64,000 nucleotides of DNA from an uncultured Pelagibacteraceae bacterium (GTDB lineage: Bacteria; Pseudomonadota; Alphaproteobacteria; Pelagibacterales; Pelagibacteraceae): contig CABXTC010000004.1 of NCBI GenBank assembly GCA_902515095.1, positions 62,001 through 126,000 of the forward strand, written 5' to 3'. The notes under the pieces are model-generated. The model did not search any database, had not been told where the DNA came from, and worked only from the letters and a program-made list of their open reading frames with translations. The translations under genes were made by a program, and so were the position numbers. Of this stretch, positions 11,791-61,722 are shown piece by piece. Within the stretch, counting starts at the first letter, position 1. Every line of letters begins with the position of its first letter.

Positions 11791-13342
11791 TCATAATTTG
11801 AATAAAATTTTAATTGTTGATTTTGGTTCACAATTCACACAATTAATAGCAAGAAGGATAAGAGAATTAGGAATTTTTTCTGAGATTGTAAGTCATAAAA
11901 AAATTAAGAGCAAAGATATTAATCATAATGTCAAAGGCATAATTTTATCAGGTGGTCCACTTAATGTTTATCAAATTAATAAATATTCTTTTGATAAAAA
12001 GATTATTCAAAAAGATGTCCCAGTTTTAGGTATTTGTTTTGGCCATCAAATAATATCCAAATTAAATGGAGGAAAAGTAAAACAGTCAAAGCATAGAGAG
12101 TTTGGTTTAGCAAATATTTTAAAAAAAAATAACAGTCTTTTAATAAAAGATTTGTTTAAGAAAAAAAAATCAATCAAAGTTTGGATGAGTCACGCCGATC
12201 AAGTTTCAAAATTACCAAAAAATTTTAAGATAATTGCTTCAAGTCAAAATTCAAAATTTGCTGCAGTTGAAAATAAATTAAAGAATTATTATGGAGTTCA
12301 ATTCCATCCAGAGGTCACACATACTGAAAATGGAAAAAAACTAATAAGTAACTTTATTTTTTTAATATGTAAAATGAAAAAAAATTGGTCTTCAAGAGAT
12401 CAAAAAATTAAATTGATGCAAGATGCTAGAAGATTAGTAGGAGATAACAAAGTCATTTGTGCCTTATCAGGTGGTGTTGATAGCAGTGTAGTCGCCCAAT
12501 TATTAAATAAAGCAATTGGTAAAAATTTGTACTGTATTTTTGTAAATACAGGTCTCTTAAGAAAAAATGAGGAAAAACAAGTCGTTGCAACATTTAGAAA
12601 GAGACTAAAGATTAACCTCATATATGTAAATGCAGAGAAAGAGTTTATTAAAAAATTATCAAATATTTCAGATCCTGAAAAAAAAAGAAAGATAATAGGA
12701 AACTTATTTATAAAAATATTTGAGCGATATGCTAAAAAAATTAAAAACGTAAAATTTTTGGCTCAAGGCACACTTTACCCTGATTTAATAGAAAGTAGAT
12801 CAGTTACAGGTAGTCAAACTTCAAAAATAAAATCTCATCACAATGTTGGAGGCTTACCTAAAAAAATGAAACTTAAGTTAGTAGAACCATTGAAATTTTT
12901 ATTTAAAGACGAGGTAAGAAAACTGGGATTGGAGCTTAACTTAAGTAAAGATATTATTTCTCGACACCCTTTTCCTGGACCTGGATTAGCAATAAGAATG
13001 CCAGGAATAATAACAAAAGAAAAAATAAATATTTTAAAAGAAGCTGATCACTATTTTATTCAAGCTTTAAAGGATTACAATTTATATCATAAAATTTGGC
13101 AAGCTTATGCAGCGTTACTACCAGTCAAAACAGTTGGTGTAATGGGAGATAATAGAACTTATGAATATTTATGTTTGTTAAGAGCAATAACTTCCGAGGA
13201 TGGTATGACTGCAGACTTTTATGAATTTAAAAAATCATTTATTCAAGAAATTTCAAATAAAATAGTCAATAGTATTAGAGGGATTAATAGAGTAGTTTAC
13301 GATATAACCTCAAAACCACCTAGTACAATTGAATTAGAGTAA
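11780..13342 (+). CDS. guaA: GMP synthase (glutamine-hydrolysing)
   Basis: Amidates XMP to GMP using glutamine and ATP. The N-terminal class I glutamine amidotransferase has Cys in GICFGHQ (near residue 86) and His/Glu in [12 protein letters not shown] (about 173-184). The PP-loop ATP pyrophosphatase domain has [10 protein letters not shown] near residue 228. The C-terminal dimerisation domain has [12 protein letters not shown] and ends KPPSTIELE as in other GuaA proteins. At 520 residues it is full length. panB starts directly at the next base. Confidence 0.97.
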
Positions 13343-36738: not shown

Positions 36739-37872
36739 TTATTTTCTACCTTTAGATAACAGCTGTTTGTAAAATTTAACATCTGCATTTCCTTCGCATC
36801 CAATGACAAGAATATTGGAATCTTCCTTCAAATCTAATAATTTTCTCGCTTTGAGATTGTTAGCTAAACCTATAAGAGCAATTACCCCTGGCGTTGCACA
36901 TTCACTTCCTGTTATTGAAACTTTGCTCAATTTTTTATCTTTTAGCATCGCTGTCATTTTGGCAACATTATTGTCAGTAACAGATACACAATAGTCAGAA
37001 GTTTTCTTTAAAATTTGCCATGGTACAAATGACATTTCATTACATGACATTCCGCCCATGATACTCTCTTTTTTTATTCTTATTTTTTTTAGTTTATTTG
37101 TTTTTATACTCTGAAGTACACAATCAGCTCTGTCAGGTTCAACAACAATTATTTTTGGAATTTTTTTAAAATATTTTGCTACCCCAGCAACCACACCTGC
37201 TGCTAATCCTCCAACACCAGCTTGAACAAATATGTGTGTTATGTAATGATTTGTTTGTTTGGATATTTCTTTTATTATAATGGAGTATCCAGCCATCGTA
37301 AGTTGGGGAATATACTTGTAGTTTTTGGTAGAGACGTCCTGAACAATTTGCCAATTGTTCTTTTTTGAAAGTCTTTTGCATTCTTCTAATGAATTTTCAT
37401 AATTTCCTTTAACTCTTATTACCTCAGCACCAAATTTCTCTATTTCACGAACTCTTGTTTGGCTTACATATTGACTTACAAAAATTTTACACTTTAAGTT
37501 TAATCTTTTTGCCCCCCAGGCAACAGACCTACCATGGTTACCGGCTGTAGCTGATGAAATAACGATATTTTTTTTTCCTTTAGATATTCTCTCTACAGCG
37601 TATGCTCCTCCTAAAGCTTTAAAAGACTTTAAGTGAAATCTCTTAGATTCATCTTTATAAAATATATTGTTAAATTTTAAATTTTTCTTCAATTTATCAA
37701 GTGATAAAAGAGGAGTTACCTTATAATTTTTCCAACTAGATATTGATTTATAGGCATTAGTAATAAATGCAGATGGAAGATGTTTTAAAACATAATTTCT
37801 TTTAAAATTATAATGATTATTTTTTAATAATTTTTGATATTTCCAATTTTTAAGATTTTTTAAGCTTTTCAC
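36739..37872 (-). CDS. PLP-dependent ammonia-lyase, diaminopropionate ammonia-lyase/threonine-dehydratase-like
   Basis: Fold-type II PLP enzyme (377 residues). FHLKSFKALGGAYAV carries the PLP lysine, SSATAGNHGRSVAWGAKRLN is the Asn loop as in YgeX/DpaL, and FVQAGVGGLAAGV is the phosphate-binding glycine loop. The SFKxLGG and AGNHGRSVAW pattern favours DpaL-like over biosynthetic IlvA. It probably eliminates ammonia from a diamino or hydroxy amino acid. It starts at GTG one base after gmaS, so it is part of the amine-nitrogen operon; its link to methylamine use is unknown. Confidence 0.75.
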   Translation of the reverse strand: MKSLKNLKNWKYQKLLKNNHYNFKRNYVLKHLPSAFITNAYKSISSWKNYKVTPLLSLDKLKKNLKFNNIFYKDESKRFHLKSFKALGGAYAVERISKGKKNIVISSATAGNHGRSVAWGAKRLNLKCKIFVSQYVSQTRVREIEKFGAEVIRVKGNYENSLEECKRLSKKNNWQIVQDVSTKNYKYIPQLTMAGYSIIIKEISKQTNHYITHIFVQAGVGGLAAGVVAGVAKYFKKIPKIIVVEPDRADCVLQSIKTNKLKKIRIKKESIMGGMSCNEMSFVPWQILKKTSDYCVSVTDNNVAKMTAMLKDKKLSKVSITGSECATPGVIALIGLANNLKARKLLDLKEDSNILVIGCEGNADVKFYKQLLSKGRK

Positions 37873-37873: not shown

Positions 37874-39199
37874 TTAACAATCTAGAGTATTTTGTCTTTC
37901 CCATTTGGTTATAGGTTTCGACTTATCAAATTTCTCTACATTATCAAATTCTTTAATTTCTGTACCTCTAAGCTTTATATAGCTATCGATTACATTAGCA
38001 CCAAAAGCCTCATTCATTTCTTTATTTTGTTTTAATTTTTTTAATGATTGATTTAACTCATCAGGAAGTTTTGGAAGATCTGGATATTTTGCAAAGTCTT
38101 TGTACATATTACAATGAAGAGGTTTACCAGGATCAATCTTATTTTTAATACCATTTATTCCAGCCGCGAGAACACTTGCTTGAAGCAGATAAGGATTAGC
38201 AGATCCATCCATTAATCTTAATTCAAATCTTCCTGGATCAGGAATTCTTATCATATGTGTTCTATTATTACCGGTGTAAGATATACTACTTGGTGACCAC
38301 GATGCTCCTGATTTTGTTGGAGGCGCATTAATTCTCCTGTAACTATTAATTGTTGGATTAAAAAATGCAGATAGAGATGAAGCATGTTTTATAACTCCAC
38401 CCAAAAAATTATATGCTATTTTACTTAGACCTAATTCATTAGATTTATCTAAAAATTTATTTTTCTTTCCATCCCAAACAGAAATATGGGCATGACAACC
38501 GTTTCCAGTTAAATTTTCAAATGGTTTAGGCATAAATGTTGCTCTTAAACCGTGTTTTTCAGCAATGGTTTTTACCATGTATTTAAAAAATGTATGCCTA
38601 TCTGCGGTCTTTAAACAATCTGAGTAATCCCAATTCATTTCAAATTGGCCATTAGCATCTTCATGATCATTTTGATAAGGACCCCATCCCATTTCGATCA
38701 TACAATCGCAAATTTCTTTAATTAAGTCATATCTTCTCATTAAAGCTGATTGATCATAGCAAGGTTTTGATTGGGTATCCCTTGGATCTGCAATTGAATT
38801 TCCATCAGGAGATATTAAGAAATATTCACATTCTACTCCAGATTTCATGACAAGACCTTGTTTTGAGAGTCTTTTTATTTGTTTTTTTAACATTACTCTT
38901 GGTGAGGCATCTACTGGTTTTCCATTCATCCAAAGATCTGAGGCAAGCCAACCCACTTCTTTATTCCAAGGTAACTGAATTAAACTATCTGGATCTGGAA
39001 TTCCAAACATGTCTGAATCTGCAGGAGTCATATCCAACCAAGCAGCAAATCCTGCAAACCCTGCACCATTTTCTTGCATTTCTTTAATTGCGTGAACGGG
39101 TACTAATTTTGATCTAAGAACTCCAAATAAATCGACAAAACTTATTAAAAAATATTCAATTTTTTTTTCTTTAGCAATTCTGAACAAATTTTTTGGCAC
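37874..39199 (-). CDS. gmaS: Gamma-glutamylmethylamide synthetase (type III glutamine-synthetase family)
   Basis: Ligates methylamine to glutamate with ATP. The 441-residue protein looks like GlnT/GmaS: YFLISFVDLFGVLRSKLVP, GAGFAGFAAWLDMTPADSD, GVECEYFLIS (metal Glu), YQNDHEDANGQFEMNW, GNGCHAHISVWD and PGRFELRLMDGSANPYL. Glutamine synthetase activity cannot be excluded. Neighbouring mgsABC, tmm and tdm genes support GmaS. It starts at GTG 17 bp after a small membrane-protein gene. Confidence 0.8.
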   Translation of the reverse strand: MPKNLFRIAKEKKIEYFLISFVDLFGVLRSKLVPVHAIKEMQENGAGFAGFAAWLDMTPADSDMFGIPDPDSLIQLPWNKEVGWLASDLWMNGKPVDASPRVMLKKQIKRLSKQGLVMKSGVECEYFLISPDGNSIADPRDTQSKPCYDQSALMRRYDLIKEICDCMIEMGWGPYQNDHEDANGQFEMNWDYSDCLKTADRHTFFKYMVKTIAEKHGLRATFMPKPFENLTGNGCHAHISVWDGKKNKFLDKSNELGLSKIAYNFLGGVIKHASSLSAFFNPTINSYRRINAPPTKSGASWSPSSISYTGNNRTHMIRIPDPGRFELRLMDGSANPYLLQASVLAAGINGIKNKIDPGKPLHCNMYKDFAKYPDLPKLPDELNQSLKKLKQNKEMNEAFGANVIDSYIKLRGTEIKEFDNVEKFDKSKPITKWERQNTLDC

Positions 39200-39216
39200 A
39201 AATTAAGTTATCATAG

Positions 39217-39375
39217 TTATTTGAAAAAAGAAAAAATAGTTTCTTTATATATAATTAAATTTACACAAATAATTATTATAACTGCTAGAATTACACCATA
39301 TTTTGCTTTAGGAAAAACAACACCACGCATTTTGGTTGGTCTTAATTCTTCGTTATTATTATCTTTTTCAGGCAT
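39217..39375 (-). CDS. 52-residue single-pass membrane protein, not in the ORF track
   Basis: The minus strand from ATG at 39375 to TAA at 39217 encodes 52 residues. A charged N-terminus (MPEKDNNNEELRPTKMRG) precedes one strong hydrophobic helix, AKYGVILAVIIIICVNLIIY (residues 24-43), and a short FSFFK tail. It lies 17 bp upstream of gmaS and just beyond the terminator of the amt transcript, in the same direction. The composition and position between two expressed genes make it credible. No family is recognised. It could be a partner of the adjacent ammonium transporter or amine enzymes. Confidence 0.65.
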   Translation of the reverse strand: MPEKDNNNEELRPTKMRGVVFPKAKYGVILAVIIIICVNLIIYKETIFSFFK

Positions 39376-39390
39376 TATTAGTTAAGAAAT

Positions 39391-39420
39391 AAAAATGGGC
39401 ACCGTTTATCACAGTGCCCA
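39391..39420 (-). terminator. Rho-independent terminator after the amt transcript
   Basis: On the minus strand a 7-bp GC-rich stem (TGGGCAC / GTGCCCA) with an 11-nt loop is followed by TTTTTATTTC. It lies 16 bp after the 76-residue protein's stop, closing the amt operon before the 52-residue gene and gmaS. Confidence 0.75.
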
Positions 39421-39435
39421 AATTTTTAGTTTAGA

Positions 39436-39666
39436 TTACCAATCGGTAATATTGCTTTTATGATCATTGGCTCCATGTCTTTTTCTTGCTAATCTATCAA
39501 GTTCATCACTTTCAGATTTAGCTGTTAAAACATGCCAACCAACCCATAAAATAATAGCAAGTATAACAAGTATACCTTCACTAGATCCAGCACCAGGATA
39601 AACAGCACCAACAACTTCTTCAGCTGGTTTGTTTAGGTGATCAATCCAATTTGTAACTGTCGCCAT
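39436..39666 (-). CDS. 76-residue single-TM protein downstream of the ammonium transporter
   Basis: MATVTNWIDHLNKPAEE is a short amphipathic N-terminus. GILVILAIILWVGWHVL (about 31-47) is one TM helix, and a charged C-terminus (KSESDELDRLARKRHG) follows. A strong SD (AAGGAG) precedes the ATG, and the gene sits 11 bp after amt. No family is recognised. Co-transcription with amt suggests an accessory or regulatory subunit; no GlnK/PII gene is seen nearby. Confidence 0.75.
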   Translation of the reverse strand: MATVTNWIDHLNKPAEEVVGAVYPGAGSSEGILVILAIILWVGWHVLTAKSESDELDRLARKRHGANDHKSNITDW

Positions 39667-39677: not shown

Positions 39678-41078
39678 TTACCTGGTTGAGGAAGCAACTG
39701 CTTTTTCGTCAGATTTTGCAGCTTCCATTATTTCATAGTCTAGTCCAGCTATTTCTACTTCTCGCGGAATTCTTAATTTACCCATTCCGTGAAGAACTTT
39801 AGCTATGACATAGCCTGGTATTAGTCCAAGAACTACGAACATTATTAATGCTCCTAAGAATTGTCCTAATGGGTTAATTGTAGCATAAGTTGTTCCGTCC
39901 CACATTGCACCAACACTGTAACCAGATGATGGGTAACCATTTAGAACAAAACCACATATTACTAGACCAATAAATCCAGCATAACCATGTACTGCAACTG
40001 CACCAACTGCATCATCAATTTTGAACTTACGCTCAACCCAGTAATGTAGTTTGTATGAAATCACAACACCGATCATACCAATGATCATTGCTTGAATTGG
40101 ATGATATAAATCATTTCCAGCTGAAGCACATATGATACCTGCTAGTCCACTTGAGTAAGTCCAGAAAGGATCACCTTTTGCAATCCAATAACCGGCTAAT
40201 AATCCTCCTGATAATGACATCAAGAAGTTAAAAGTAATACCACTAAGTGTAGTAGGGGTTACGTATATGTTTGTTGCTGTCCAATAACTTATGCCTTCCA
40301 TACCGTATTCAGGTCCAAGGTCAAAGATTGGTATGTTACAAGCTGCGTAGAATCCCCAGAAACCAGTATAAATTAGAAACAATCCAATTGTAACTAACCA
40401 AGGGTTTCTTGGTCCAATATTTCTTGGTTCACCGCTAGATGAAAACTTACCAATTCTTGGTCCTAAAACCATAAGAACACCCAAAGCAAAACCACCCGCT
40501 ATAGCGTGAATTACTCCTGATGCATAAGCATCATGGTACCCTAGTAGTTTAAGCATCCAGCCATCAAAGTGCCATCCCCATGCAGCATCAATTGTCCAAA
40601 ATACAGATCCAATTGCAATTGCTAAAATACCAAATGCAAAAGTTGTTATTCTTTCAATGATTGCTCCTGAAACGATGGAAGCAGCTGTCCAAGAAAATAA
40701 AAGGAATGCAGCCCAGAAGACACCAGAAATATGGTCCCCTAAGTTAACAGCCATTAACTCACTTGTTGCCGTGTACCAAGTAGCACTAAATGCAGAATCG
40801 TCTGTAATTAGAGCTGTACTTTCGTTCATTATTGATGGTGCTAATCCAGGTCCTGTAGGAAAAGCCCAGTAAATCCACCAACCAAATAAAAACCATGTTA
40901 CTGTTACCAGAGGTATCAGCATCGTGTTTTTCATAAGAGTATGTTGATGGTGTTTGTATCGAGAAGCTCCAACTTCATACATACAGAAACCGACGTGAAT
41001 TAAAAACATCAGTACCACTGTTACCCAGTAGTAAAATTCCGTAAATATAGTAGTAAGAGCACCTAACTGATCAGTCAT
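39678..41078 (-). CDS. amt: Ammonium transporter (Amt family), divergent
   Basis: A 466-residue polytopic protein (about 11 TM segments) without a clear cleavable signal. The pore histidines expected of Amt/Mep/Rh proteins appear as GVIHAIAGGFALG and AVAVHGYAGFIGL. An Amt-like FWTIDAAWGWHFDGWML and the C-terminal GYVIAKVLHGMGKLRIP are also seen. A GGAGAGA SD precedes the start. It probably imports ammonium or methylammonium; methylammonium would fit the surrounding gmaS/mgs genes. Followed by the two small TM proteins. Confidence 0.88.
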   Translation of the reverse strand: MTDQLGALTTIFTEFYYWVTVVLMFLIHVGFCMYEVGASRYKHHQHTLMKNTMLIPLVTVTWFLFGWWIYWAFPTGPGLAPSIMNESTALITDDSAFSATWYTATSELMAVNLGDHISGVFWAAFLLFSWTAASIVSGAIIERITTFAFGILAIAIGSVFWTIDAAWGWHFDGWMLKLLGYHDAYASGVIHAIAGGFALGVLMVLGPRIGKFSSSGEPRNIGPRNPWLVTIGLFLIYTGFWGFYAACNIPIFDLGPEYGMEGISYWTATNIYVTPTTLSGITFNFLMSLSGGLLAGYWIAKGDPFWTYSSGLAGIICASAGNDLYHPIQAMIIGMIGVVISYKLHYWVERKFKIDDAVGAVAVHGYAGFIGLVICGFVLNGYPSSGYSVGAMWDGTTYATINPLGQFLGALIMFVVLGLIPGYVIAKVLHGMGKLRIPREVEIAGLDYEIMEAAKSDEKAVASSTR

Positions 41079-41204: not shown

Positions 41205-41615
41205 CTAAAATTTTAAGTATGCTTTTTTAAGATCTACGAGTGGATGTTTTGGGGACATTTGAAATTTTACCAAAAGTTCTCTTGCGATCATGTCCCTGTC
41301 TTGTTGGTTGTTAGGCAGTTTTATCGATTTTGGAATTGTTACCCAACCATTAGCATTTCTACAAAATACTGCAGGTCTATCTTCTTCGTAACCCATGTGA
41401 ACATCTTCTAGCCAATTAAGGTCATCCCAACCCATTGCCTCTAAATATTTTTTAAGGAATGGAGTGATTTTACTATAATCAGGTAAAAGGTTTACATCAT
41501 ATCTATATCCAATAGATTGACCGATCATTTTTTCTCTAGCAGTTTCCTTCTTTTTTCCTAATTGGCCTTTCACTACATTTATTTTTGTAAGTTTTTTTCC
41601 TTTTTTCTTAACCAT
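41205..41615 (-). CDS. Conserved-looking 136-residue protein of unknown function, linked to mgsC
   Basis: A basic N-terminal tail (MVKKKGKKLTK, to about residue 30) is followed by a compact acidic/aromatic domain (PFLKKYLEAMGWDDLNWLEDVHMGYEEDRP, split in the middle by AVFCRNANGWVTIP). It has no signal or TM helix. It lies 8 bp after the glutamate-synthase-like large subunit gene. It may be an accessory or assembly factor of that enzyme. No family is recognised. Confidence 0.7.
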   Translation of the reverse strand: MVKKKGKKLTKINVVKGQLGKKKETAREKMIGQSIGYRYDVNLLPDYSKITPFLKKYLEAMGWDDLNWLEDVHMGYEEDRPAVFCRNANGWVTIPKSIKLPNNQQDRDMIARELLVKFQMSPKHPLVDLKKAYLKF

Positions 41616-41623: not shown

Positions 41624-43042
41624 CTATATTTTGTGAAAGTTGTCAACTCCAACAGTGTAGTTAGTTCCTGCTAATGGTACTTTTGCTAAAGCAGATGACT
41701 CAGTAGTTAAAGCAGCTAAATCTTCTGGTTCTAAAGAATGTATATTTGTTTTTCCACATGCTCTAGCTAACAACTGAGCTTCAAGTGTCATTGAATGTAA
41801 ATAATTATAAACTCTCAAAGCTGCATCATCAGGGTTTAATCTTGCTCTTAATTTTGGATCTTGTGTAGCAACTCCCACAGGGCATCTTCCAGTATGACAG
41901 TGGTAGCATTCACCTGCTTTCACTCCCATTTCTTTTTCAAAATTTGCCTCCGGAATATCTTTGTTGCAGTTTAGCGCAATCATAGAGCCCGTTCCAATAG
42001 CTATCGCATCTGCACCTAAAGCTAATGCTTTTGCCATATCAGCGCCATCTCTTACTCCACCTGCATAAATCAATGTTACCTTTCCAGTTTTTCCAACATC
42101 ATCCAATGCTCTTCTTGCTTCTCTTATAGCTGCAATACCAGGAATACCTGTGTTTGCTGCAGCGATGTGTGGACCTGCTCCTGTAGATCCTTCCATACCA
42201 TCTAAATAAATAGAGTCCGGATCACATTTTGCAGCCATACGAACATCATCATAAACTTTTGATGCACCTAATTTCAATTGAATTGGAACTTTATTTTTTG
42301 TTAACTGTCTAAGTTCCTCTACTTTTAATGCTAAATCGTCTGGACCTAACCAGTCAGGATGTCTTGCAGGAGATCTTTGATCAATACCAGATGGTAACGA
42401 TCTCATTTCAGCAACTTGATCAGTTACTTTTTGACCCATCAAATGACCACCCATACCGACTTTCTGTCCTTGTCCAATAAAAACTTCTATTCCATCAGCT
42501 AATTGTGCATGATGAGGATTAAATCCATATCTTGATTGAATACATTGATAAAACCATTTTTCAGAATATCTTCTTTCATCAGGTATCATTCCACCTTCAC
42601 CCGAACACGTTGCGCTACCAGCCATTGTAGCTCCTCTTGCTAAAGCAGTTTTTGCTTCATAAGATAAAGCACCAAAACTCATACCAGTGATATAAACTGG
42701 AATATCTAATTCAATTGGATTTTCACATCTTGGCCCAATAACAGTTTTTGTTTCACATTTTTCTCTGTAACCTTCAATAACAAATCTAGTAAGAGTTCCT
42801 GGCAAGAAAACCAAATCATCAAATGTTGGAATTTTTTTCATTAATGCCATTCCACGCATTCTGTATCTTCCCAATTGAGATTTTATGTGAATGTCATCAA
42901 TTACTTCAGGAGTGAAAATTGCATTATGGCCCAATAAACTTTTATTTCTTCCACCGTTTGAACTTAAATGTACATCCGCTTTTCCACCAACGTTTCCATT
43001 AGTTTTTAATTTACTGTTTTTTTTCTTTTTTTTCTTAGCCAT
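41624..43042 (-). CDS. mgsC: N-methylglutamate synthase large subunit-like (glutamate-synthase FMN/Fe-S domain)
   Basis: The FMN-binding and 3Fe-4S part of the GltB family as a separate 472-residue protein. GMSFGALSYEAKTALARGA, GEGGMIPDERRYS, LKLGASKVYDDVRMAA, DGMEGSTGAGP and the cluster motif CYHCHTGRCPVGVATQD are visible. In the N-methylglutamate pathway MgsC, with MgsA and MgsB, makes N-methylglutamate from gamma-glutamylmethylamide or methylamine; the same set is also called GlxD-like. It overlaps mgsB by one base. Confidence 0.85.
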   Translation of the reverse strand: MAKKKKKKNSKLKTNGNVGGKADVHLSSNGGRNKSLLGHNAIFTPEVIDDIHIKSQLGRYRMRGMALMKKIPTFDDLVFLPGTLTRFVIEGYREKCETKTVIGPRCENPIELDIPVYITGMSFGALSYEAKTALARGATMAGSATCSGEGGMIPDERRYSEKWFYQCIQSRYGFNPHHAQLADGIEVFIGQGQKVGMGGHLMGQKVTDQVAEMRSLPSGIDQRSPARHPDWLGPDDLALKVEELRQLTKNKVPIQLKLGASKVYDDVRMAAKCDPDSIYLDGMEGSTGAGPHIAAANTGIPGIAAIREARRALDDVGKTGKVTLIYAGGVRDGADMAKALALGADAIAIGTGSMIALNCNKDIPEANFEKEMGVKAGECYHCHTGRCPVGVATQDPKLRARLNPDDAALRVYNYLHSMTLEAQLLARACGKTNIHSLEPEDLAALTTESSALAKVPLAGTNYTVGVDNFHKI

Positions 43043-43896
43043 TAAATTGCTCCTTTTTTCTCGGCAGGCTCCAAGTTATCGTAATTCCAAAGTTTTTTAC
43101 CTGCTACAATTTTTTTCATTTTACTGACATCGAAATTTTCGCCAATCTCAGCAACCTTTAGTTTTCTCTTAAGCCAATCTTGATCACTTTTGGTTAATTC
43201 CGCATCTACTGCATCACTACCATAAGAACCAATTTCTCCACCTACGAAAATTGTCCCATCATACATCGAATCACCTAAATTTATACCAACATCACCTAAT
43301 ATGATAATTCTGCCTCTTTGCATCATAAATCCAGTAAATGCACCTGCATCACCACCAATAATTATTGTGCCACCTTTCTGATCAATACCTGTTCTTGCAC
43401 CAACGCTACCTTTACATATCAAATCTCCACCCCTGATAGCAGCTCCAAAACAAGATCCAGCATTTTTCTCAATTACAACTTTACCTGCCATTAAGTTTTC
43501 TGCACAAGACCAACCAACTCTTCCATTGATTCTCACTATTGGACCATCACATGAACCCATTCCAAAATATCCTAAACTACCTTCAAAAATTAAATTTAAT
43601 TTATTTAAAATACCAACACCTAAACTATGTTTTCCTTGGGGATTTTTAATAACAATTGTTCCATAACCCTGACTCATCAAATTATCTATTTTTTTATTTG
43701 CCTCCGCCGCAGTCATATCTTTGACGTCAAGATCAGTTCTTTTATTGAAATCAACATCATAAGTACCAAAGTAATAAAAGTTTTCAGCTTCATCAGGATT
43801 GAAGAATTTTTGTTGTGTTCTTCCAGTCAAAACCTCAGTGTGCATTCCCATTGCTTGGGCTTTAGTTTTTTTCGAAACACTTTTTATATTTGCCAT
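43042..43896 (-). CDS. mgsB: N-methylglutamate synthase GXGXG-domain subunit
   Basis: A 284-residue protein matching the C-terminal beta-helix (GXGXG) domain of glutamate synthase. NPQGKHSLGVGILN, YFGMGSCDGPIVRINGRVGW, CFGAAIRGGDLICKGSVGAR and GGDAGAFTGFMMQRG show the glycine-rich repeats. It forms the structural core joining MgsA and MgsC. It overlaps mgsA by 13 bp and mgsC by one base. Confidence 0.85.
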   Translation of the reverse strand: MANIKSVSKKTKAQAMGMHTEVLTGRTQQKFFNPDEAENFYYFGTYDVDFNKRTDLDVKDMTAAEANKKIDNLMSQGYGTIVIKNPQGKHSLGVGILNKLNLIFEGSLGYFGMGSCDGPIVRINGRVGWSCAENLMAGKVVIEKNAGSCFGAAIRGGDLICKGSVGARTGIDQKGGTIIIGGDAGAFTGFMMQRGRIIILGDVGINLGDSMYDGTIFVGGEIGSYGSDAVDAELTKSDQDWLKRKLKVAEIGENFDVSKMKKIVAGKKLWNYDNLEPAEKKGAI

Positions 43897-44828
43897 ACTT
43901 TTACCTCTCCATCGAATGGATCATAAGTATCAATTTCTTGTGGTAAAATTGATCTTATTGCTATTTCCTCTGAACCCATCGCCACCAAATCATCAGACTC
44001 ATACAAAACTAAAGGCTTAGCAGCCATAGTATCTTTTGCCATTCCCAAAGAGTCTTTTGTAGCAACAAAGTAAGTAAAGACACCGTCTAACCCAGTAAGA
44101 GATTCTTTCATGCCTTCCTCTAAAGATGCTCCCTCTCTCATTTTTTCAGCTAAATAGACAGCTATAAGTTCTGAGTCACACTCAGACATAAATCTCATTC
44201 CTTTATTTTCTAAAGCTCTTCTGTTGTTCCAATAATTTGTAAGTTGTCCATTATGAACCACTGACACATCACTAAAAGGATAACCCCAAAAAGGGTGAGC
44301 AGATTTTATATCTACACCAGATTCAGTCGCCATTCTTGCATGCCCAATTGCATGCGTGCCAACTAGTTTGTCTAGATTATATCTGTCACAAACCATTTTT
44401 GCATTTCCAAGATCCTTAATTACCTCTAAAGATTTGCCCATTGAAAGTATCTCTACTCCTGGAATACTCTCTATTTTTTGTGAAAATTCTAATAAATCTT
44501 TTTTATTGTACTCTATTTCGTATCTTAATGAGTAAGGAAGTATTCTCTCCTCCTTAACGACTTTTGCACCCATTTCTTCAAGATAACTATCTACAATTTT
44601 TTTTCTTTCATCATAAACAGATACATCTTCAGCAACTGATGTGCTTCCTTCACCAACATTTTCTCCAACTTTAAATCTCATGATGAAATTTTTTCCATCA
44701 GTGTCTCCATAAAGAGCGTAACCTGTACTATCTTCTCCTCTATGTTTTAGAGCCTGTAACATCCCTTGAAGCTCATGACCAACTTTTGAAGATTTTCCTC
44801 TGTGAATTAAGCCTGCAATTCCGCACAT
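43884..44828 (-). CDS. mgsA: N-methylglutamate synthase amidotransferase subunit (class II GATase)
   Basis: This 314-residue protein starts MCGIAGLIHRG, so Cys2 is the amidotransferase nucleophile after Met removal. GHARMATESGVDIKSAHPF and VVHNGQLTNYWN are class II GATase landmarks, followed by ECDSELIAVYLAEKM. It corresponds to the N-terminal GATase domain of glutamate synthase as a separate subunit. First gene of the mgsABC overlap series, 22 bp after the second GS-like gene, with a clean AAGGGGA SD. Confidence 0.87.
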   Translation of the reverse strand: MCGIAGLIHRGKSSKVGHELQGMLQALKHRGEDSTGYALYGDTDGKNFIMRFKVGENVGEGSTSVAEDVSVYDERKKIVDSYLEEMGAKVVKEERILPYSLRYEIEYNKKDLLEFSQKIESIPGVEILSMGKSLEVIKDLGNAKMVCDRYNLDKLVGTHAIGHARMATESGVDIKSAHPFWGYPFSDVSVVHNGQLTNYWNNRRALENKGMRFMSECDSELIAVYLAEKMREGASLEEGMKESLTGLDGVFTYFVATKDSLGMAKDTMAAKPLVLYESDDLVAMGSEEIAIRSILPQEIDTYDPFDGEVKVWQI

Positions 44829-44850: not shown

Positions 44851-46320
44851 TTATGGTAAGCAATCTAAATAAGTATCTAGATCCCATTGAGTTGTTGCAC
44901 CTAAAAATTTTTCCCACTCATCATTCTTGTACCAATGAAATATCTTATACATTTCATCAGGCATTGCTGATTGAATAACTTTATCGGCAGCCAATTGATC
45001 TAATGCTTCACCAAGACTTAGAGGTAATTTTTTAACATCTTTTCCAGCTTTTTGAGCTTCATAAATGTTTCTGGACTCTGGTTTACCTGGATCAATTTTA
45101 TTTGTTAAACCATCATCAAATGCCTTTAATAGACCTGCTCCCATCAAATAAGGATTATGCATTGAGTCTACTGATCTATATTCAAATCGTCCTGGAGCAG
45201 AAACTCTTAATCCACAAGTTCTATTTTGATAACCCCAATCCGCATAAACAGGTGCCCAAAATCCTTGATCCCACAATCTTCGATAAGAATTAACAGTTGA
45301 TGACCCAATTGCGGTTAGTGCTCCTAAATGTTTCATCACACCACCAATAGATAACAAACCAACTTTACCAGGTAATTGAACATCTTTAGTATCAGGCATA
45401 AATGTATTTGTACCACCCTCTACATAGCTAAATACCTCATCCATTCCTGGAATAGATTTATGACCTAATTTATTAACCTTATCTTTACCACCTGTCCATA
45501 AAGACATGTTAGTGTGGCAACCACTTGCTGATACTCCCATAAAAGGTTTTGTCATAAAGCAAGCAATTAAATTGAATTCTCTTGCTACTTGTGCACATAT
45601 TTGTCTATAAGTTGACAGTCTATCTGCATTTCTCAAGACATCATCGTACATCCAGTTCAATTCTAGTTGTCCTGGAGCATCTTCATGATCACCTTGGATC
45701 ATATCAAAACCCATTGCTCTAGCGTATTCCATTACTTTCATAAACACAGGCCTTAGAGACTCAAACTGATCAATATGATAACAATAAGGTTTAGAAAATC
45801 CTTTACCTGTTGGGGTACCATCTGGATTTTTTGTTAACCACATCATCTCAGGTTCAGTTCCAACTCTCAATTGGTAACCATGTTTTTTCTTAAATTCTTC
45901 AGCAATTATTCTTAAATTTCCTCTACAATCAGATGTTAAATGCCCACCTGGATTTTCTCTTTCTTCCCTATTTCTAAAACAAGTAACGAATACTCTTCCA
46001 ACTTTTTTATCCCAGGGTAGTTGACAGAAAGTTTCAGGATCTGGAATTCCAACTAATTCTTTAGCTTCAGGCCCATATCCTATGTAGTTGTTATGTCTAT
46101 CTAAAAATAAGTTGGCAGTAGCACCGTAAACTAACTGAAATCCTTTTTCACAAGTTCTTTCCCAGTGGTCTGAAGGAATACCTTTACCAACGACTCTTCC
46201 TGTGACTGATATAAATTGAAAAAAAATATACTCAACTCCAAGTTCATTTATCTTGGCTCTAACTTGTTTTACAAGTTTATCTCTACCAGGTTTATTTACG
46301 TGTTTTTCTAGATCTGTCAT
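44851..46320 (-). CDS. Second glutamine-synthetase-superfamily ligase
   Basis: A 489-residue GS-family protein distinct from the gmaS product. EYIFFQFISVTGRVVGKG, GTEPEMMWL, IQGDHEDAPGQLELNW, ASGCHTNMSLW and PGRFEYRSVDSMHNPYLMG keep the catalytic Glu/His and ATP-site pattern. It leads the mgsABC operon. It may be glutamine synthetase, an alternative GmaS or a ligase for another amine. A GAGGGGA SD precedes the ATG. Two GS-like enzymes within 7 kb imply divided substrates. Confidence 0.8.
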   Translation of the reverse strand: MTDLEKHVNKPGRDKLVKQVRAKINELGVEYIFFQFISVTGRVVGKGIPSDHWERTCEKGFQLVYGATANLFLDRHNNYIGYGPEAKELVGIPDPETFCQLPWDKKVGRVFVTCFRNREERENPGGHLTSDCRGNLRIIAEEFKKKHGYQLRVGTEPEMMWLTKNPDGTPTGKGFSKPYCYHIDQFESLRPVFMKVMEYARAMGFDMIQGDHEDAPGQLELNWMYDDVLRNADRLSTYRQICAQVAREFNLIACFMTKPFMGVSASGCHTNMSLWTGGKDKVNKLGHKSIPGMDEVFSYVEGGTNTFMPDTKDVQLPGKVGLLSIGGVMKHLGALTAIGSSTVNSYRRLWDQGFWAPVYADWGYQNRTCGLRVSAPGRFEYRSVDSMHNPYLMGAGLLKAFDDGLTNKIDPGKPESRNIYEAQKAGKDVKKLPLSLGEALDQLAADKVIQSAMPDEMYKIFHWYKNDEWEKFLGATTQWDLDTYLDCLP

Positions 46321-46390: not shown

Positions 46391-47716
46391 CTAACTCCAA
46401 GGAAACGGACTGTTCGAAGTAGGGTGAAGTTCACCTTTCTCGTATCGGTTGAATCTAAATGGTTTCAACAAGTCACTTTCTTGTCCTAAAATTTCTTTCG
46501 CAACTAATTCACCAACGCCAATCATTTTATAACCATGGTTAGCATCTGCAATCATATAAACGTTTTCTAAAAATCTATCAAATATTGGAAAAGAATCTGG
46601 AGTCATACATCCAAGACCACCTGAAGGACCTTTTCTGTAAAGATCTGACTTACCTTCAAATCTTTTTTGACAATGAGCTAAAGCAGAACACCACATATCA
46701 TTAAAAGCCTCAGTGGTTTGGTATTCTGGTGACTCTATTCCGTAAGGATCCACATTTACTTCATCAAAATGCTTATCTACAATGTAAGGTGAAGTTCCAC
46801 CTTGGACACCCAGACCCTCAATATCAGGTTTGTAATAAATTCCCCAAATTTTATCTGTAATTAATTTTTTTGTTTTATCAGAATATAGAGGTGCAGTAGA
46901 ATCTACATGAATTACTGGAGGCTGTTCGCCATTATTCATTTTTAAAAAATCTGGTTCAACACCAATTACACCTTCTTGTAACATCCAGTAAGTCCACATG
47001 TCAGTCGTATGCATTTTACCATCTTTACCTTTGATATTTGCAGTTTTAGGGAGTTCAAGCATATTCCAGAAATCTCTAGCCCAAGGACCAGCCCCAATGA
47101 CTACTTGTTCGCAATCTATTGTGCCTTGATCTGTTTCTACTCCTGTCACAGCTTTACTGTTACTGCCTCTCTTGAATCCATTGACTTTTACACCTTTAAT
47201 TACTTGAACACCGTTTGAAGTTGATTTGTTTTCTAGAGCTCTAATAGAATCTTTGTTAAATGCATAGCCACCTTTTTTTTCATGAAGTACAGACGTAATT
47301 CCTTGTGCTTGCCAATCATTAAACATATCTTTCATATATTTCGTACAGTCTTTTTCACCTTCAATGAACTCAGATTCATAGCCTATTGCTTTTTGTTGTT
47401 CGTAAATTGTTGCAACATCTTTATGCATAACTTCTGGAGAAATTTGTAAATATCCAACAGCATTATATTTAAATGCTTTAGGATCACTTTCCCAAACTGA
47501 AACTGAATGAGCCATCAATTCTCTCATTGCTGGCTGGAAATAATTATTTCTTACAACACCACAAGCAATTCCACTTGCACCTGCAGCGATATCATTTTTT
47601 TCTAAAACTACAATGTCACCCGGATTTTTATATGTCTCTGATAATTTCCATGCAGTACTTAATCCGTGGATACCTCCACCTACTATAACAACTTTTGCTT
47701 TTGTCGGTAATGACAT
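46391..47716 (-). CDS. Orphan FAD-dependent amine oxidoreductase (DAO family)
   Basis: A 441-residue protein with an N-terminal FAD motif VVIVGGGIHGLSTAWKL (about 9-25). AAGASGIACGVVRNNYFQPAMREL resembles the SoxB-type covalent/flavin-binding segment, and a GG/ADANHGYKMIGVGELVA segment ends the FAD fold. It is related to sarcosine oxidase beta and dimethylglycine dehydrogenase but lacks the partner subunits. It could oxidise dimethylglycine, sarcosine or another secondary amine. It leads the glnA-like/mgs transcript, 70 bp upstream, and could supply a missing demethylation step; this is inference. Confidence 0.75.
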   Translation of the reverse strand: MSLPTKAKVVIVGGGIHGLSTAWKLSETYKNPGDIVVLEKNDIAAGASGIACGVVRNNYFQPAMRELMAHSVSVWESDPKAFKYNAVGYLQISPEVMHKDVATIYEQQKAIGYESEFIEGEKDCTKYMKDMFNDWQAQGITSVLHEKKGGYAFNKDSIRALENKSTSNGVQVIKGVKVNGFKRGSNSKAVTGVETDQGTIDCEQVVIGAGPWARDFWNMLELPKTANIKGKDGKMHTTDMWTYWMLQEGVIGVEPDFLKMNNGEQPPVIHVDSTAPLYSDKTKKLITDKIWGIYYKPDIEGLGVQGGTSPYIVDKHFDEVNVDPYGIESPEYQTTEAFNDMWCSALAHCQKRFEGKSDLYRKGPSGGLGCMTPDSFPIFDRFLENVYMIADANHGYKMIGVGELVAKEILGQESDLLKPFRFNRYEKGELHPTSNSPFPWS

Positions 47717-47797: not shown

Positions 47798-48148
47798 TTA
47801 AAAACTTAGATGTTTTAAAGTTTCAATATATCTATTGAATTCATGAATAAAACTCTCACTTGGCTTTATGTGTTTTTTCCTTTGATCATTTGAAGTTTTT
47901 TCTAAAAAAAAAAAACCTTTTTCACAGGCCTCATTTATCATCAGAGCAGACTTTGGACGTGAAGTTTTAAATAATTTAGTTTTGAGCTCTTCGACAGTTA
48001 GATTTTCTTTATATTTGTAAGCATGCATTACTAAAAGCATCATGTGATAATGTGATGGTGATTTTCTAAAAAAATAATTGCTAGACATGTGAGAAAGTTT
48101 CATTTGATCTTCCCAAAATTCCAATAAATCTTTAGCTGTTTTTGGCAT
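47798..48148 (-). CDS. MarR-like winged-helix regulator
   Basis: A 116-residue protein with helical N-terminus, a LTVEELKTKLFKTSRPKSAL recognition-helix region and a wing SNDQRKKHIKPSES, which resembles the DxRxxRxxLT wing of MarR proteins. No ligand or target can be read. It is coupled to tdm by a TAATG overlap and so probably controls tdm, the oxidoreductase or the tmo genes. Confidence 0.7.
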   Translation of the reverse strand: MPKTAKDLLEFWEDQMKLSHMSSNYFFRKSPSHYHMMLLVMHAYKYKENLTVEELKTKLFKTSRPKSALMINEACEKGFFFLEKTSNDQRKKHIKPSESFIHEFNRYIETLKHLSF

Positions 48149-50487
48149 TATGATCTAACTCTTGTCTTTTTAGGATCAAAATGTGGAAATGCTACTACTT
48201 TTGCAGAGATTCTTTTCTGATGCCCGTCAATTTTACCAACTTCTACTTCAGTTCCTTCATTTGAATATTGAGCATCAATTCTACACAAAGCTATATTTTT
48301 ATTTAAAGTTGTGGACAAACATCCACTAGTAATTATGCCAATTTGTGACCTTCCAACATGCACACAGTCACCGTGTCCTGCTATCTCTCTACCAATAAGC
48401 TCAAGACCCACAAGTTTCTTTTGAGGATTTGCTTTTCTTTCTTTTAACACCTCTTTACCAATAAAATTTTCCTCTTTAGTTTTCAATGGAACAGCAAAAC
48501 CTATTCCAGCCTCAAAAGGATCTTGTTGACCATCAAATTCATTACCAAATAAAATTAAACCCGCTTCAATTCTGAGCTTATCTAAAGCTGCAAATCCAGC
48601 AGGTATTAAACCCTCATCCTTTCCTGCTTCCATTAGTTTGTCCCAAACCTTAGGAGCATTTTTTGGATGACACCAAACCTCATATCCAAGTTCACCTGTA
48701 TAACCTGTTCTTGATACAATTAATGGAATACCTTGCAGGTTCTCAACTCTACAAATAGTAAATCTGAACCATTCTAATTCATCGATAGATGGCTGTGTTG
48801 GTGGAGTAAAAATTAATTTTTTTAATATCTCTCTACTTTTCGGTCCCTGTATAGACACGTTACTTATTTGGTCTGTTGAATTTTTTATATTAACTTTATA
48901 TTTTTTCTTTTTTGCTATTTCTTTTAACCATTCACCAGCATATTCATCACCACAAATCCATCTAAAACCAGTTTCACTTAGTCTTAACAATGTTCCATCA
49001 TCAAACATCATTCCATTTTCATAGCACATTGCAGAATAAACAACCTGACCTACTGCAAGTTTTTTTATATTTCTTGTAAGTGAATAATTCATCAATTCCT
49101 CAGCATCAGGACCTATAATTTCAAATTTTCTTAAGGATGATAAATCAATTAGAACTGCTTTTTCTCTACAAGCATTGTACTCTTCCACTACACCGTGTTT
49201 AGTATAATCATTTGGAAGCCAAAATCCCCTGGCGTCAATAAAGTTTCTTGTGAGTTTTGATGTTCGTTCGTAAAAACCAGAATTTCTAGTAAGTTTTTTT
49301 TCAGAGTCGGTTTTCATTCTAAAAGCAAATGATTTTGAGAATTCTTTTTTTTTATCATAAGTTCTAACAAAAATATCTGTTGGATTCCATGAATTACATG
49401 CGTCTATATCACTAGGACAAGCGGTAGTTCCTATAGTCAAATCCTTCAAAGCTCTAAACATTACGTAGTCTCCGGGCCTAGCAAATGATTCATCTGAAAT
49501 CACTGAATTTAAACCAGTAGCAGAAGTATTAAAAAATAAATTGATAGCATGCCAACCTTTTTGTTTTTTTACTCCATATTTAGCCATTGCATTATTTAGA
49601 TTATCAGAGCAGTTAGGATGACCAAAATAGCCAGCATCTTCATAATATTTTGAAGTACAAGCTAGATTAAATGTATCATGTTTTCCAACAGTATCTCTAA
49701 TCACTTCTACTAATGGCTCATGATCAGTGTCATAAAATTTTGAAAATAAACCTGGACCAGGAAAAGTATTTCCCATAAATGTCCTAGTTGTTTGCCAATC
49801 AAGACCTTTCTCAATTTTCTTATCAAGTTTTTTAGTATCAAACGCCACAAAATCTGAACATTGTCTTCCTGCTGGACTTATGACTTGAATAAAATCTCCC
49901 TCTTTAACCTCAAATGAAATAGCAGTTTGTCTTTTGATATTTTCTTCATGATTAGGTTCAAAAATAGGATCAGGAATTATTGATAATTCTTTATCTTTAA
50001 GTATTTTATATCTTTTAATGAATAACGTTATGTCGCTTGATGGATTTTGCTCAGATACTAACATATTATTTTGTGGAGCTGCAAAAATAACATAGCATTT
50101 ATCTTTAGATTTTATCTTTATTTTTTCACCACTTGGAGTTTGTTCATCAAATAAAATTGATGATTTAGATTTGTTAATGTCCAAATTTCTTTTTTTTAAT
50201 TGAAGATTTGTAATTAAAGAACTTTCATCTCTGCTCTTAAGCAATTCTTTTATAAAACTTTTTTTACAATTTTCTTTTTGATTTAAAATTCCAAGTTCAG
50301 GTTTACCATCTTTATCAAAACAAATAATTTCGCAAATTTGATTTCCTTCTTCATTTATAATTTCTATTTCATCATCAGGAAATATTTGTAAGCCTGTAAG
50401 ACCTCCAGCGTTGACAACATGTCTTTCAACTCCAGGTGGTAAAACATTAAGACCGGGTTCTTTAATATCCAAAGTAGTTTGCGACAT
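48148..50487 (-). CDS. tdm: Trimethylamine N-oxide demethylase
   Basis: Converts TMAO to dimethylamine and formaldehyde. The 779 residues split into an N-terminal DUF1989 metal domain and a C-terminal GcvT-like tetrahydrofolate-binding domain (about 400-775), the architecture of Tdm. Metal-site candidates are SPAGRQCSDFVAF, LACTSKYYEDAG followed by GHPNCSDN, and TTACPSDIDACN. The C-terminal GYTGELGYEVWCHPKNAP and GIGFAVPLK are GcvT-like. It is divergent from tmoX across about 100 bp. THF binding could trap the formaldehyde as methylene-THF. Confidence 0.92.
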   Translation of the reverse strand: MSQTTLDIKEPGLNVLPPGVERHVVNAGGLTGLQIFPDDEIEIINEEGNQICEIICFDKDGKPELGILNQKENCKKSFIKELLKSRDESSLITNLQLKKRNLDINKSKSSILFDEQTPSGEKIKIKSKDKCYVIFAAPQNNMLVSEQNPSSDITLFIKRYKILKDKELSIIPDPIFEPNHEENIKRQTAISFEVKEGDFIQVISPAGRQCSDFVAFDTKKLDKKIEKGLDWQTTRTFMGNTFPGPGLFSKFYDTDHEPLVEVIRDTVGKHDTFNLACTSKYYEDAGYFGHPNCSDNLNNAMAKYGVKKQKGWHAINLFFNTSATGLNSVISDESFARPGDYVMFRALKDLTIGTTACPSDIDACNSWNPTDIFVRTYDKKKEFSKSFAFRMKTDSEKKLTRNSGFYERTSKLTRNFIDARGFWLPNDYTKHGVVEEYNACREKAVLIDLSSLRKFEIIGPDAEELMNYSLTRNIKKLAVGQVVYSAMCYENGMMFDDGTLLRLSETGFRWICGDEYAGEWLKEIAKKKKYKVNIKNSTDQISNVSIQGPKSREILKKLIFTPPTQPSIDELEWFRFTICRVENLQGIPLIVSRTGYTGELGYEVWCHPKNAPKVWDKLMEAGKDEGLIPAGFAALDKLRIEAGLILFGNEFDGQQDPFEAGIGFAVPLKTKEENFIGKEVLKERKANPQKKLVGLELIGREIAGHGDCVHVGRSQIGIITSGCLSTTLNKNIALCRIDAQYSNEGTEVEVGKIDGHQKRISAKVVAFPHFDPKKTRVRS

Positions 50488-56284: not shown

Positions 56285-57616
56285 TTATTTATCTAAAAAA
56301 GTTTTTGAAGAGTCATCCATAGCAGTTGCCCATGGCGTATGATGAATAGGAGCTACAGAACCAGTTACAGGAGATGAAAAAGATTTATTTCTGTAAGTTG
56401 AAATATCCTCAACTTTATGATGTTCCCACTCTTTAAAGTGTTTTCTTATTAATTCAAAATCAATTTTTGGATAATCAGACATTTTATGAAGCTCTTTTGT
56501 ATACTCAGTTTGAAAATCAATCATTTGATCTGGGTTTTCTAGTTTCTCTTCCATTGCAACCCATTTATTAATATCTTTTTCGACTTCACTATTACTAGGA
56601 ATTTTGATCTTATTCATGATTACATCTCTTGCGTACCAAGCTTGGCAATCAAACATATTAAATGTGTGGAATTGATCTTGCATACCAAGATATAAAAGTT
56701 TGTGATTATCTTGCCAAACCACTCCTTTAAATAATTTTGGTGGATATAACCTGTTTCCAGTTTTTAATTGCAAATTTTCCTCTAAAAAAGGAAAATGATG
56801 GAGATAACCAGTGCATAAAATTATTACATCAGCTTCTTGTTCAGTTCCATCTTTGAATATTGCTTTTTTTCCTACTAATTTATCTAGATAGTGAACTTCT
56901 TTCATACCACTAGGCCATTTAAATCCCATCGGATTATGTCGATAACCAATGGTAACACTTTTTGCTCCATATTTATTACACTGAAGCGCAATGTCTTCTG
57001 CTGAATAACTACTTCCTAGCACTATTACATTTTTATTTCTAAATTCTTCTGCATCTCTAAAATCATGAGAATGCATTATTCTTCCTGGGAATGAGCTCAT
57101 CCCTTTGTATTCTGGAATAAATGGAACTGAAAAATGACCTGTTGAAACAACAACATAATCAAAATTATCTTTCAATATTTTATTATTAACTTTATCTTGA
57201 TAACTAATCTCGAATTTGTCGTTTTTAAAAACGGTATTTATAACTCTGGTATTAAATTTTATCTTCTTTTTTAGATTTCCTTTACTTACTCTACCAACGA
57301 TATAATTATACAAAACTTCTCTAGGTGGAAAGGATGGTATTGGCTTTCCAAAATGTTCATCAAAAGAATAATCTGCAAATTCTAAACATTCTTTTGGTCC
57401 ATTTGACCAAAGATATCTATACATGCTGTTAGGTACAGGATCTCCGTATTGATCAGATCCTGTTCGCCAACTATAATTCCATAAACCACCCCAATCATCT
57501 TGCTTTTCAAAACAAACAACTTCAGGGATTTTTTCACTATTTTTTTCTGCTAATTCAAAGGACCGTAACATTGATAGTCCACAAGGTCCTGCACCAATAA
57601 TTGCTACTTTTGTCAT
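56285..57616 (-). CDS. tmm: Trimethylamine monooxygenase
   Basis: Flavin monooxygenase that oxidises trimethylamine (and dimethyl sulfide) to TMAO (DMSO) with NADPH and O2. FAD site GAGPCGLSMLR (about 8-18), the FMO-type segment FPGRIMHSHDF, NADPH site VLGSSYSAEDIALQ and a late TGYLHHFPFL identify a class B bacterial FMO. The N-terminal VVCFEKQDDWGGLWNYSW is typical of Tmm. At 443 residues it is full length. Its neighbours tdm and tmoXWV support the assignment. Confidence 0.93.
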   Translation of the reverse strand: MTKVAIIGAGPCGLSMLRSFELAEKNSEKIPEVVCFEKQDDWGGLWNYSWRTGSDQYGDPVPNSMYRYLWSNGPKECLEFADYSFDEHFGKPIPSFPPREVLYNYIVGRVSKGNLKKKIKFNTRVINTVFKNDKFEISYQDKVNNKILKDNFDYVVVSTGHFSVPFIPEYKGMSSFPGRIMHSHDFRDAEEFRNKNVIVLGSSYSAEDIALQCNKYGAKSVTIGYRHNPMGFKWPSGMKEVHYLDKLVGKKAIFKDGTEQEADVIILCTGYLHHFPFLEENLQLKTGNRLYPPKLFKGVVWQDNHKLLYLGMQDQFHTFNMFDCQAWYARDVIMNKIKIPSNSEVEKDINKWVAMEEKLENPDQMIDFQTEYTKELHKMSDYPKIDFELIRKHFKEWEHHKVEDISTYRNKSFSSPVTGSVAPIHHTPWATAMDDSSKTFLDK

Positions 57617-60465: not shown

Positions 60466-61722
60466 ATGCAAAAATATTCAGTTTTTAGTCTTGTTAAGAA
60501 TGCCTTTTCAAATCACGAGAATTGGGACTTGGCTTGGAAAGACCCAACTCCGAAGAAAGAGTATGATGTCGTTATTATTGGTGGTGGTGGACATGGTTTA
60601 GCAACAGCATACTATTTAGCAAAAGAACACAATATCAATAATGTTGCCATAATCGAAAAAGGTTGGATCGGTGGAGGTAATGTTGGTCGAAACACTACAA
60701 TAATTAGATCAAATTATATGCATGATGACAATGCATTATTCAGCGAATTTGGAATGGATCTTTGGAGAAGAATGAGTCAAGATTTAAATTACAATGTAAT
60801 GTTTTCTCCTAGAGGAATAATAAATCTAGCTCACTCTGATGCACAAATGAATACATATGCTCGAAGAGGAAATTCTATGCGATTGAATGGAATCGATGCT
60901 GTTCTCTTAAATAGAGAACAGGTAAGAGAAATTATTCCTATGGCTGATTTTTCTGAGAATGTAAGATTTCCAATTTTTGGTGGTCTCATGCAGCCTAGTG
61001 CAGGTACTGCAAGACATGATGCGGTTGCTTGGGGTTATGCACGTCAAGCAGATTCTATGGGTGTAGATATAATTCAAAATTGTGAAGTGATTGGTTTTGA
61101 TGTGTCTGCAGGAAAAATTAATGGGGTGAGAACTTCTCGAGGAGACATTAAAGCAAAAAAAATTGGATTATGCGTTGCTGGTAGCACAAATATTTTAGCT
61201 GAAAAATTAAATATGACATTACCAATTGAGACTCATCTACTGCAAGCTTGTGTATCTGAGCCAGTGAAACCGGTTTTGGATAATGTGGTTACATTTGGTG
61301 CTGGTCATTTTTACATAAGTCAATCAGATAAAGGAGAAATGGTTATGGGTGGTGATTTAGATGGCTACAATAGTTATGCACAAAGAGGTAATCTTCCAAC
61401 ACTTCAACATGTTCTTACTGAAGGAATAGCAATGATGCCTTTCTTGAGTAAATTGAAAATGCTTAGAACTTGGGGTGGAATAATGGATATGTCTATGGAT
61501 GGCTCACCAATAATAGACAAAACTCATATTGAAGGTTTGTATTTAAATTGTGGTTGGTGCTATGGAGGATTTAAAGCAACTCCTGCATCTGGCTGGACAT
61601 TTGCACACACGATTGCACAAGATAGAGTCCACGATTTAAATGCAGGTTATAGTTTGAATAGATTTAATACTGGTCACTTACTTGACGAAAAGGGGCTTGG
61701 TACAAAAACTTGGATTTCATAA
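60466..61722 (+). CDS. soxB: Sarcosine oxidase beta subunit (or N-methylglutamate dehydrogenase homologue)
   Basis: Flavin subunit oxidising sarcosine's N-methyl group to the iminium. DVVIIGGGGHGLATAYYLAKE is the FAD site. ARRGNSMRLNG and the covalent-FMN-region GTARHDAVAWGYARQ are SoxB landmarks. The C-terminal NCGWCYGGFKATPASGW is characteristic of tetrameric sarcosine oxidase. The homologue MgdA in methylamine users is very similar, and the neighbouring gmaS/mgs genes make that reading possible. The next gene starts at the following base. Confidence 0.9.
   Translation: MQKYSVFSLVKNAFSNHENWDLAWKDPTPKKEYDVVIIGGGGHGLATAYYLAKEHNINNVAIIEKGWIGGGNVGRNTTIIRSNYMHDDNALFSEFGMDLWRRMSQDLNYNVMFSPRGIINLAHSDAQMNTYARRGNSMRLNGIDAVLLNREQVREIIPMADFSENVRFPIFGGLMQPSAGTARHDAVAWGYARQADSMGVDIIQNCEVIGFDVSAGKINGVRTSRGDIKAKKIGLCVAGSTNILAEKLNMTLPIETHLLQACVSEPVKPVLDNVVTFGAGHFYISQSDKGEMVMGGDLDGYNSYAQRGNLPTLQHVLTEGIAMMPFLSKLKMLRTWGGIMDMSMDGSPIIDKTHIEGLYLNCGWCYGGFKATPASGWTFAHTIAQDRVHDLNAGYSLNRFNTGHLLDEKGLGTKTWIS

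Follow-up and report, generated by a model that had tools for sequence, protein, structure and literature searches.

The small protein encoded at positions 41205–41615 on the minus strand of the window, the 64,000-nucleotide stretch analysed here from the roughly 1.07-Mb genome of a SAR11 bacterium (Pelagibacteraceae), is probably an obligate fourth component of an alternative N-methylglutamate synthase (Mgs'ABC), and not of the canonical MgsABC; most probably it is a structural subunit. This protein, which we call sp136, shows strict all-or-none co-occurrence with the Mgs' branch, and this pattern suggests that it is probably the enzyme's overlooked fourth part.

The sp136 gene starts with an ATG at 41615 and encodes 136 residues, comprising a variable N-terminal tail (residues 1–23) and a conserved core (residues 24–136). 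Reading of the open reading frames places its start 8 bp after the stop of mgsC' and leaves a 126-bp gap before the start of amt at 41078. The preliminary description had placed a 136-residue frame 8 bp past mgsC and ahead of amt; our analysis confirms this and adds the strand. The minus strand carries, in this order, tdm, a gene for a 116-residue protein, DAO, GS2, mgsA', mgsB', mgsC', sp136, the gap, amt, a gene for a 76-residue membrane protein, and gmaS, and the operon DAO-GS2-mgsA'-mgsB'-mgsC'-sp136 closes with sp136 as its last gene. A scan for promoters and terminators gave no signal beyond that of shuffled sequences, and an Rfam search yielded no match above gathering scores.

Several neighbours bear on amine or nitrogen metabolism. 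The ammonium transporter gene amt (39678–41078, minus) is directly followed by the gene for the 76-residue protein (39436–39666, minus), which has a membrane-like stretch; a relative with 43–45% identity adjoins amt in the non-SAR11 loci L154, L158, and L159, which suggests that it is a partner of Amt. Downstream of gmaS lies a diaminopropionate ammonia-lyase-like PLP enzyme (36739–37872, minus), and this site holds either a close (78–91%) or a distant (52–56%) version of the enzyme in SAR11 loci. The 116-residue protein (47798–48148, minus), encoded between tdm and DAO, has no Pfam match, is kept at the same place in SAR11 with 74–96% identity, and may regulate the operon. Further along are an FMO resembling trimethylamine monooxygenase (56285–57616, minus), which has relatives in other TMA clusters and which we take to be tmm from homology and context, and, on the plus strand, a SoxB-type mgdA-like gene (60466–61722), the first of mgdABCD, which continues downstream.

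The sp136 reading frame is a real gene, given its recurrence in relatives, its dN/dS, and its 68–80% identity outside SAR11, where we found it in 35 alphaproteobacterial genomes; within its own family it was found in 34 of 118 sampled genomes. Comparing the window with SAR11 homologues, dN/dS over the core is about 0.004–0.05, with dS near saturation; purifying selection on this part of the protein is strong. An alignment of 14 diverse members has 55 invariant positions. By mean pairwise distance, sp136 (0.23) is more conserved than MgsA', MgsB', and DAO (0.31–0.34), while the value for MgsC' is 0.15.

The protein matches no recognised family, just as the preliminary description had it. Profile searches against Pfam, PHROGs, and PADLOC returned no matches; NCBIfam returned none for sp136 of the window and only chance-level matches for its relatives, and nothing in the PDB was significant. 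In particular, neither profiles nor structures tied sp136 significantly to an unrelated known domain. We treated a PDB profile match to TLAP2 (E 0.019) as chance. The structure model is weak (pLDDT 57 overall, about 73 for the core) and matched no solved fold; Foldseek matches to GRK2 and others were ignored, with E above 0.04 and a weak model. The protein contains neither a conserved cysteine nor a cofactor motif.

The composition of the protein bears on whether it might instead be a regulator, of the operon or of nitrogen metabolism, for instance a PII-like effector or an RNA- or DNA-binding protein whose basic tail sits on nucleic acid. The tail of sp136 in the window contains 10 K/R and no D/E, and the low-confidence model has an alpha-beta-beta-beta-alpha order that may be read the same way; this order is also found in some RNA-binding domains. 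The tail varies, though, being Lys-rich in SAR11 and acidic in other lineages, and a regulator is usually much more variable than the enzymes under its control; we regard a regulatory role as very improbable. The basic tail noted earlier is thus a feature of SAR11 members and is not conserved beyond them. Likewise, the core, which had been described as acidic and aromatic, is indeed rich in aromatic residues (13 F/W/Y) but is neutral in charge, with 17 K/R and 16 D/E.

Evidence for a link to the synthase comes from the distribution of the gene. In a sample of 386 Alphaproteobacteria genomes, where we delimited the MgsC' clade at a threshold of at least 76% identity, sp136 is present in 37 of 37 MgsC' genomes and in 0 of the 349 others; the two presence sets are identical. 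The boundary of the clade is a clean identity gap, with MgsC' at 76% or above and other MgsC at 55% or below. The 35 genomes that have only the canonical MgsC (50–55% identity) all lack sp136. The preliminary description had tied the protein to the split glutamate-synthase-like enzyme and proposed co-occurrence with mgsABC as a check; the tie stands for a distinct, paralogous MgsC clade, not for mgsABC generally, and sp136 is absent beside the canonical, gmaS-linked genes.

Wherever both genes are readable, in SAR11 loci and in the non-SAR11 loci L134–L164 and L166–L167, sp136 directly follows mgsC', and this adjacency spans more than ten families; at L165, just the end of mgsC' is visible ahead of sp136. 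The two are always separate genes, with no true fusion. Apparent MgsC'-sp136 fusions (open frames of 611–613 aa) were rejected because mgsC' has its own stop and lies in a different frame. That sp136 is an unrelated hitch-hiking gene is refuted in practice by this complete linkage, by the adjacency across families, and by a dN/dS near 0.01; we found nothing in its favour. The mirror-tree correlation between sp136 and MgsC' is 0.56, no higher than with other neighbours. We found no sp136 homologues on plasmids, though hundreds of plasmids carry MgsC-like genes, and a phylum-wide sample gave matches in 2 of 398, both alphaproteobacterial. Viral contigs yielded a single SAR11-like match, on IMG/VR contig IMGVR_UViG_3300006306_000019 (L168; 91% identity), possibly host DNA misassigned as viral.

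The enzyme itself is encoded by three split GltB-like genes on the minus strand, all with Pfam matches to the expected domains: mgsA' (43884–44828) for a class II amidotransferase subunit (PF13522) whose N-terminal nucleophile is Cys2 (MCGIAG); mgsB' (43042–43896) for a GXGXG-domain subunit (PF01493) of 284 aa, compared with 225 aa in canonical SAR11 MgsB; and mgsC' (41624–43042) for an FMN/Fe-S glutamate-synthase-like subunit (PF01645) with Fe-S cysteines (..ALNC / CYHCHTGRC). The loci compared retain both the catalytic Cys2 in MgsA' and the Fe-S cysteines in MgsC'. NADPH/ferredoxin glutamate synthase (GltB) has the same fold and cofactors, but it is a single 1500-aa chain that uses glutamine as substrate and has no sp136. 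The canonical MgsABC (GlxBCD) with GmaS shares the three split subunits and their order, the neighbouring amine ligase, and the company of MgdABCD; it differs in that MgsC' is only about 50–55% identical to canonical MgsC and forms a separate branch, that the ligase of Mgs' is GS2 instead of GmaS, and that sp136 is present with Mgs' only. In a small tree with few rows, the canonical MgsC sequences form their own branch with 100/100 support; by this tree and the identity gap, MgsC' does not group with gmaS-linked MgsC. From the mgd gene context in genome G319 and at locus L140, we predict that Mgs'ABC is an enzyme of the N-methylglutamate synthase type.

Of the 37 genomes with sp136, 19 have both Mgs sets, in some SAR11 within one locus, which argues that the two sets have different jobs. 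Where the canonical mgsABC lies beside this operon in SAR11, it has no sp136-type gene; at L026:10405-13297, for example, gmaS follows at 13332 with no gene between mgsC and gmaS. SAR11 genomes differ in whether they have canonical mgsABC between the amt region and gmaS (L026:10405-13297 versus 39199–39436 of the window). The genome studied here has gmaS and lacks canonical mgsABC; in such genomes, Mgs' presumably also serves gmaS. A third MgsC-like set is found at L195:3996-10814, where an MgsC of about 40–44% identity and an 843-aa protein with weak MgsC similarity lie beside a true gmaS; similar MgsC matches occur in families f31, f70, and f72.

Co-occurrence alone fits a subunit and a dedicated assembly or regulatory factor alike. 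A dedicated assembly or maturation factor, loading Fe-S or FMN or holding subunits for example, and leaving the finished Mgs', would account for the same co-occurrence, for the small size of sp136, and for its having no recognised cofactor motif. Yet sp136 is nearly as conserved as the catalytic subunit and has many invariant positions, which fits a permanent interface better, and neither canonical MgsC nor GltB requires a factor of this kind; we consider this reading unlikely, though the least so among the alternatives. The canonical MgsABC functions without an sp136-type protein, so an Mgs-type enzyme needs none in principle, and this point counts against a subunit as well.

If sp136 is a subunit, its contribution would be structural. 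In the mechanism we envisage, MgsA' would release the amine from a gamma-glutamyl-amide, and MgsC', with its FMN and Fe-S centres, would add that amine to 2-oxoglutarate to give an N-methylated glutamate, which MgdABCD would then demethylate. By binding the enzyme, sp136 would clamp MgsA', MgsB', and MgsC' to one another or seal the route that the amine takes from MgsA' to MgsC'; because it has no conserved Cys and no cofactor motif, we expect a brace or a lid, not an electron carrier.

The amine ligase of the operon, GS2 (44851–46320, minus), is glutamine-synthetase-like. In glutamine synthetase, Asp50 and the Glu of the Glu-flap bind and deprotonate ammonium. Matching residues by motif and not by structure alignment, we find Tyr64 at the Asp50 position and Trp355 at the Glu-flap position of GS2, invariant in the loci examined; GmaS likewise lacks both residues, with Ala48 and Trp300 there (PMC7948447). 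GS2 also keeps the QGDHEDAPGQLELN motif of GmaS, in which Asp177, Glu179, and Glu186 lie (PMC7948447). For dimethylamine, the GmaS studied there has a Km of 16 mM (PMC7948447). It scores only 293.6 bits against TIGR03105, below the cut-off of 469.6, and falls in a separate clade, whereas the window also holds a true gamma-glutamylmethylamide synthetase, gmaS (37874–39199, minus), which is over that cut-off and scores 582 bits to the solved GmaS (PDB 7cql). Since GS2 has lost the ammonium residues and shares the GmaS motif, it is probably an amine ligase, though one other than GmaS.

The preliminary description had suggested that sp136 might link MgsABC to the amine ligases, and a coupling of GS2 to the Mgs' complex, channelling an unstable or valuable gamma-glutamyl-amide, would fit the presence of GS2 in 36 of 37 genomes with sp136 and in 0 of 11 tested genomes without it. 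The exception is telling: G319 (locus L163) has neither GS2 nor DAO, with gmaS ahead of mgs'ABC-sp136 and an mgdA homologue nearby. The ligase has been swapped in this genome and sp136 kept with mgs'ABC, which indicates that the partner of sp136 is the synthase and not the ligase. Moreover, GS2 lies at the opposite end of the operon from sp136, and we now disfavour this link, which we judge quite improbable. The gene order of G319 also implies that Mgs' can plausibly work with gamma-glutamylmethylamide. At L140, the series DAO-GS2-mgs'ABC-sp136 continues straight into mgdA and mgd-type genes, an order that places the product of the operon before N-methylglutamate dehydrogenase.

What feeds the operon is suggested by tdm (48148–50487, minus), a homologue of the TMAO demethylase gene. 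The tdm product converts TMAO to dimethylamine and formaldehyde. Among the 386 genomes, 36 carry tdm; sp136 is present in 28 of these and in 9 of the 350 others (Fisher p ~1e-27, with no correction for common descent). Within the family sample of 118 genomes, each of the 30 genomes with tdm also has sp136, tdm is found in 0 of 84 without sp136, and every sampled SAR11 genome with tdm carries the operon. Nine genomes, G319 among them, have sp136 and no tdm, so sp136 is not limited to bacteria that use TMAO.

SAR11 bacteria oxidise TMA, TMAO, and methylamine. They all lack dmmDABC, and there has been no evidence yet of dimethylamine oxidation in SAR11 (Lidbury et al, 2017, PMC5520151). In our sample, PF11927, which we take as the marker of the Dmm haem subunit, gives strong matches in 6 of 8 genomes with tdm and no sp136 and in 0 of 28 with both, an exclusion with Fisher p 1.4e-5 by genome and 5e-4 by families, with shared ancestry only roughly controlled. 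Weak matches of 51–59 bits occur in G145 and G416, which have tdm and sp136, and in G346, which has tdm without sp136. At L187, genes for a GCV_T protein and a DmmA-like one (PF22290) cluster with the PF11927 gene, the grouping to be expected of dmmDABC. As for the two exceptions, tdm of G346 lies on a 6,992-bp contig and other members of its genus carry sp136; G414 (L192) has a tdm homologue of 43% identity with neither sp136 nor PF11927, and may have either a diverged tdm function or another dimethylamine route. The operon and DmmDABC would hold the same metabolic position, after Tdm, with unrelated proteins.

Because SAR11 lacks the dimethylamine monooxygenase, we tentatively propose an alternative: the operon could possibly be the missing dimethylamine pathway of SAR11 and of other bacteria lacking that monooxygenase, consisting of GS2, Mgs'ABC with sp136 as its fourth subunit, and DAO. 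First, GS2 would join dimethylamine to glutamate with ATP, giving gamma-glutamyl-dimethylamide. MgsA' would then hydrolyse this amide and pass the amine to MgsC', which would reduce the iminium formed with 2-oxoglutarate to N,N-dimethylglutamate, with sp136 bracing the complex or closing the path. DAO (46391–47716, minus), an FAD oxidoreductase from the superfamily of sarcosine oxidase beta and dimethylglycine dehydrogenase and the putative N,N-dimethylglutamate demethylase, would remove one methyl group to give N-methylglutamate, and MgdABCD would take off the second; demethylation by MgdABCD is known for N-methylglutamate. The proposal that the pathway accepts dimethylamine or its glutamyl-amide rests on the phyletic pattern. 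In G444 and G184, we found no DAO gene.

Published annotation of strain HTCC1062 can be read in the same light. In an intergenic table (PMC2704228), 125 bp separate SAR11_1310 (amt) from the preceding SAR11_1309, annotated as a hypothetical protein; since this gap matches the 126-bp gap here, SAR11_1309 is very probably sp136 by gene order, and the same table led us to drop SAR11_1312 as a candidate. An AMT gene, SAR11_1303, was reported beside a 'monomeric sarcosine oxidase', SAR11_1304, and glxBCD-glnT as SAR11_1313–1316 (Sun et al, 2011, PMC3160333). Judging from gene order, SAR11_1303 would be tdm, SAR11_1304 would be DAO, and the putative Mgs of the literature would correspond to canonical MgsABC. 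In the open-access literature we found no paper on SAR11_1312 or on an MgsD, and nothing on dimethylglutamate or glutamyl-dimethylamide in this context.

Lidbury et al (2017, PMC5520151) regard the dimethylamine step as a genetic bottleneck in marine waters, one that affects amine emission and aerosols. Our analysis offers a named set of five or six genes for this gap, with sp136 as a defined candidate for an overlooked subunit. If the proposal is true, some of the ocean's most abundant cells would run a new dimethylamine route that does without the known monooxygenase.
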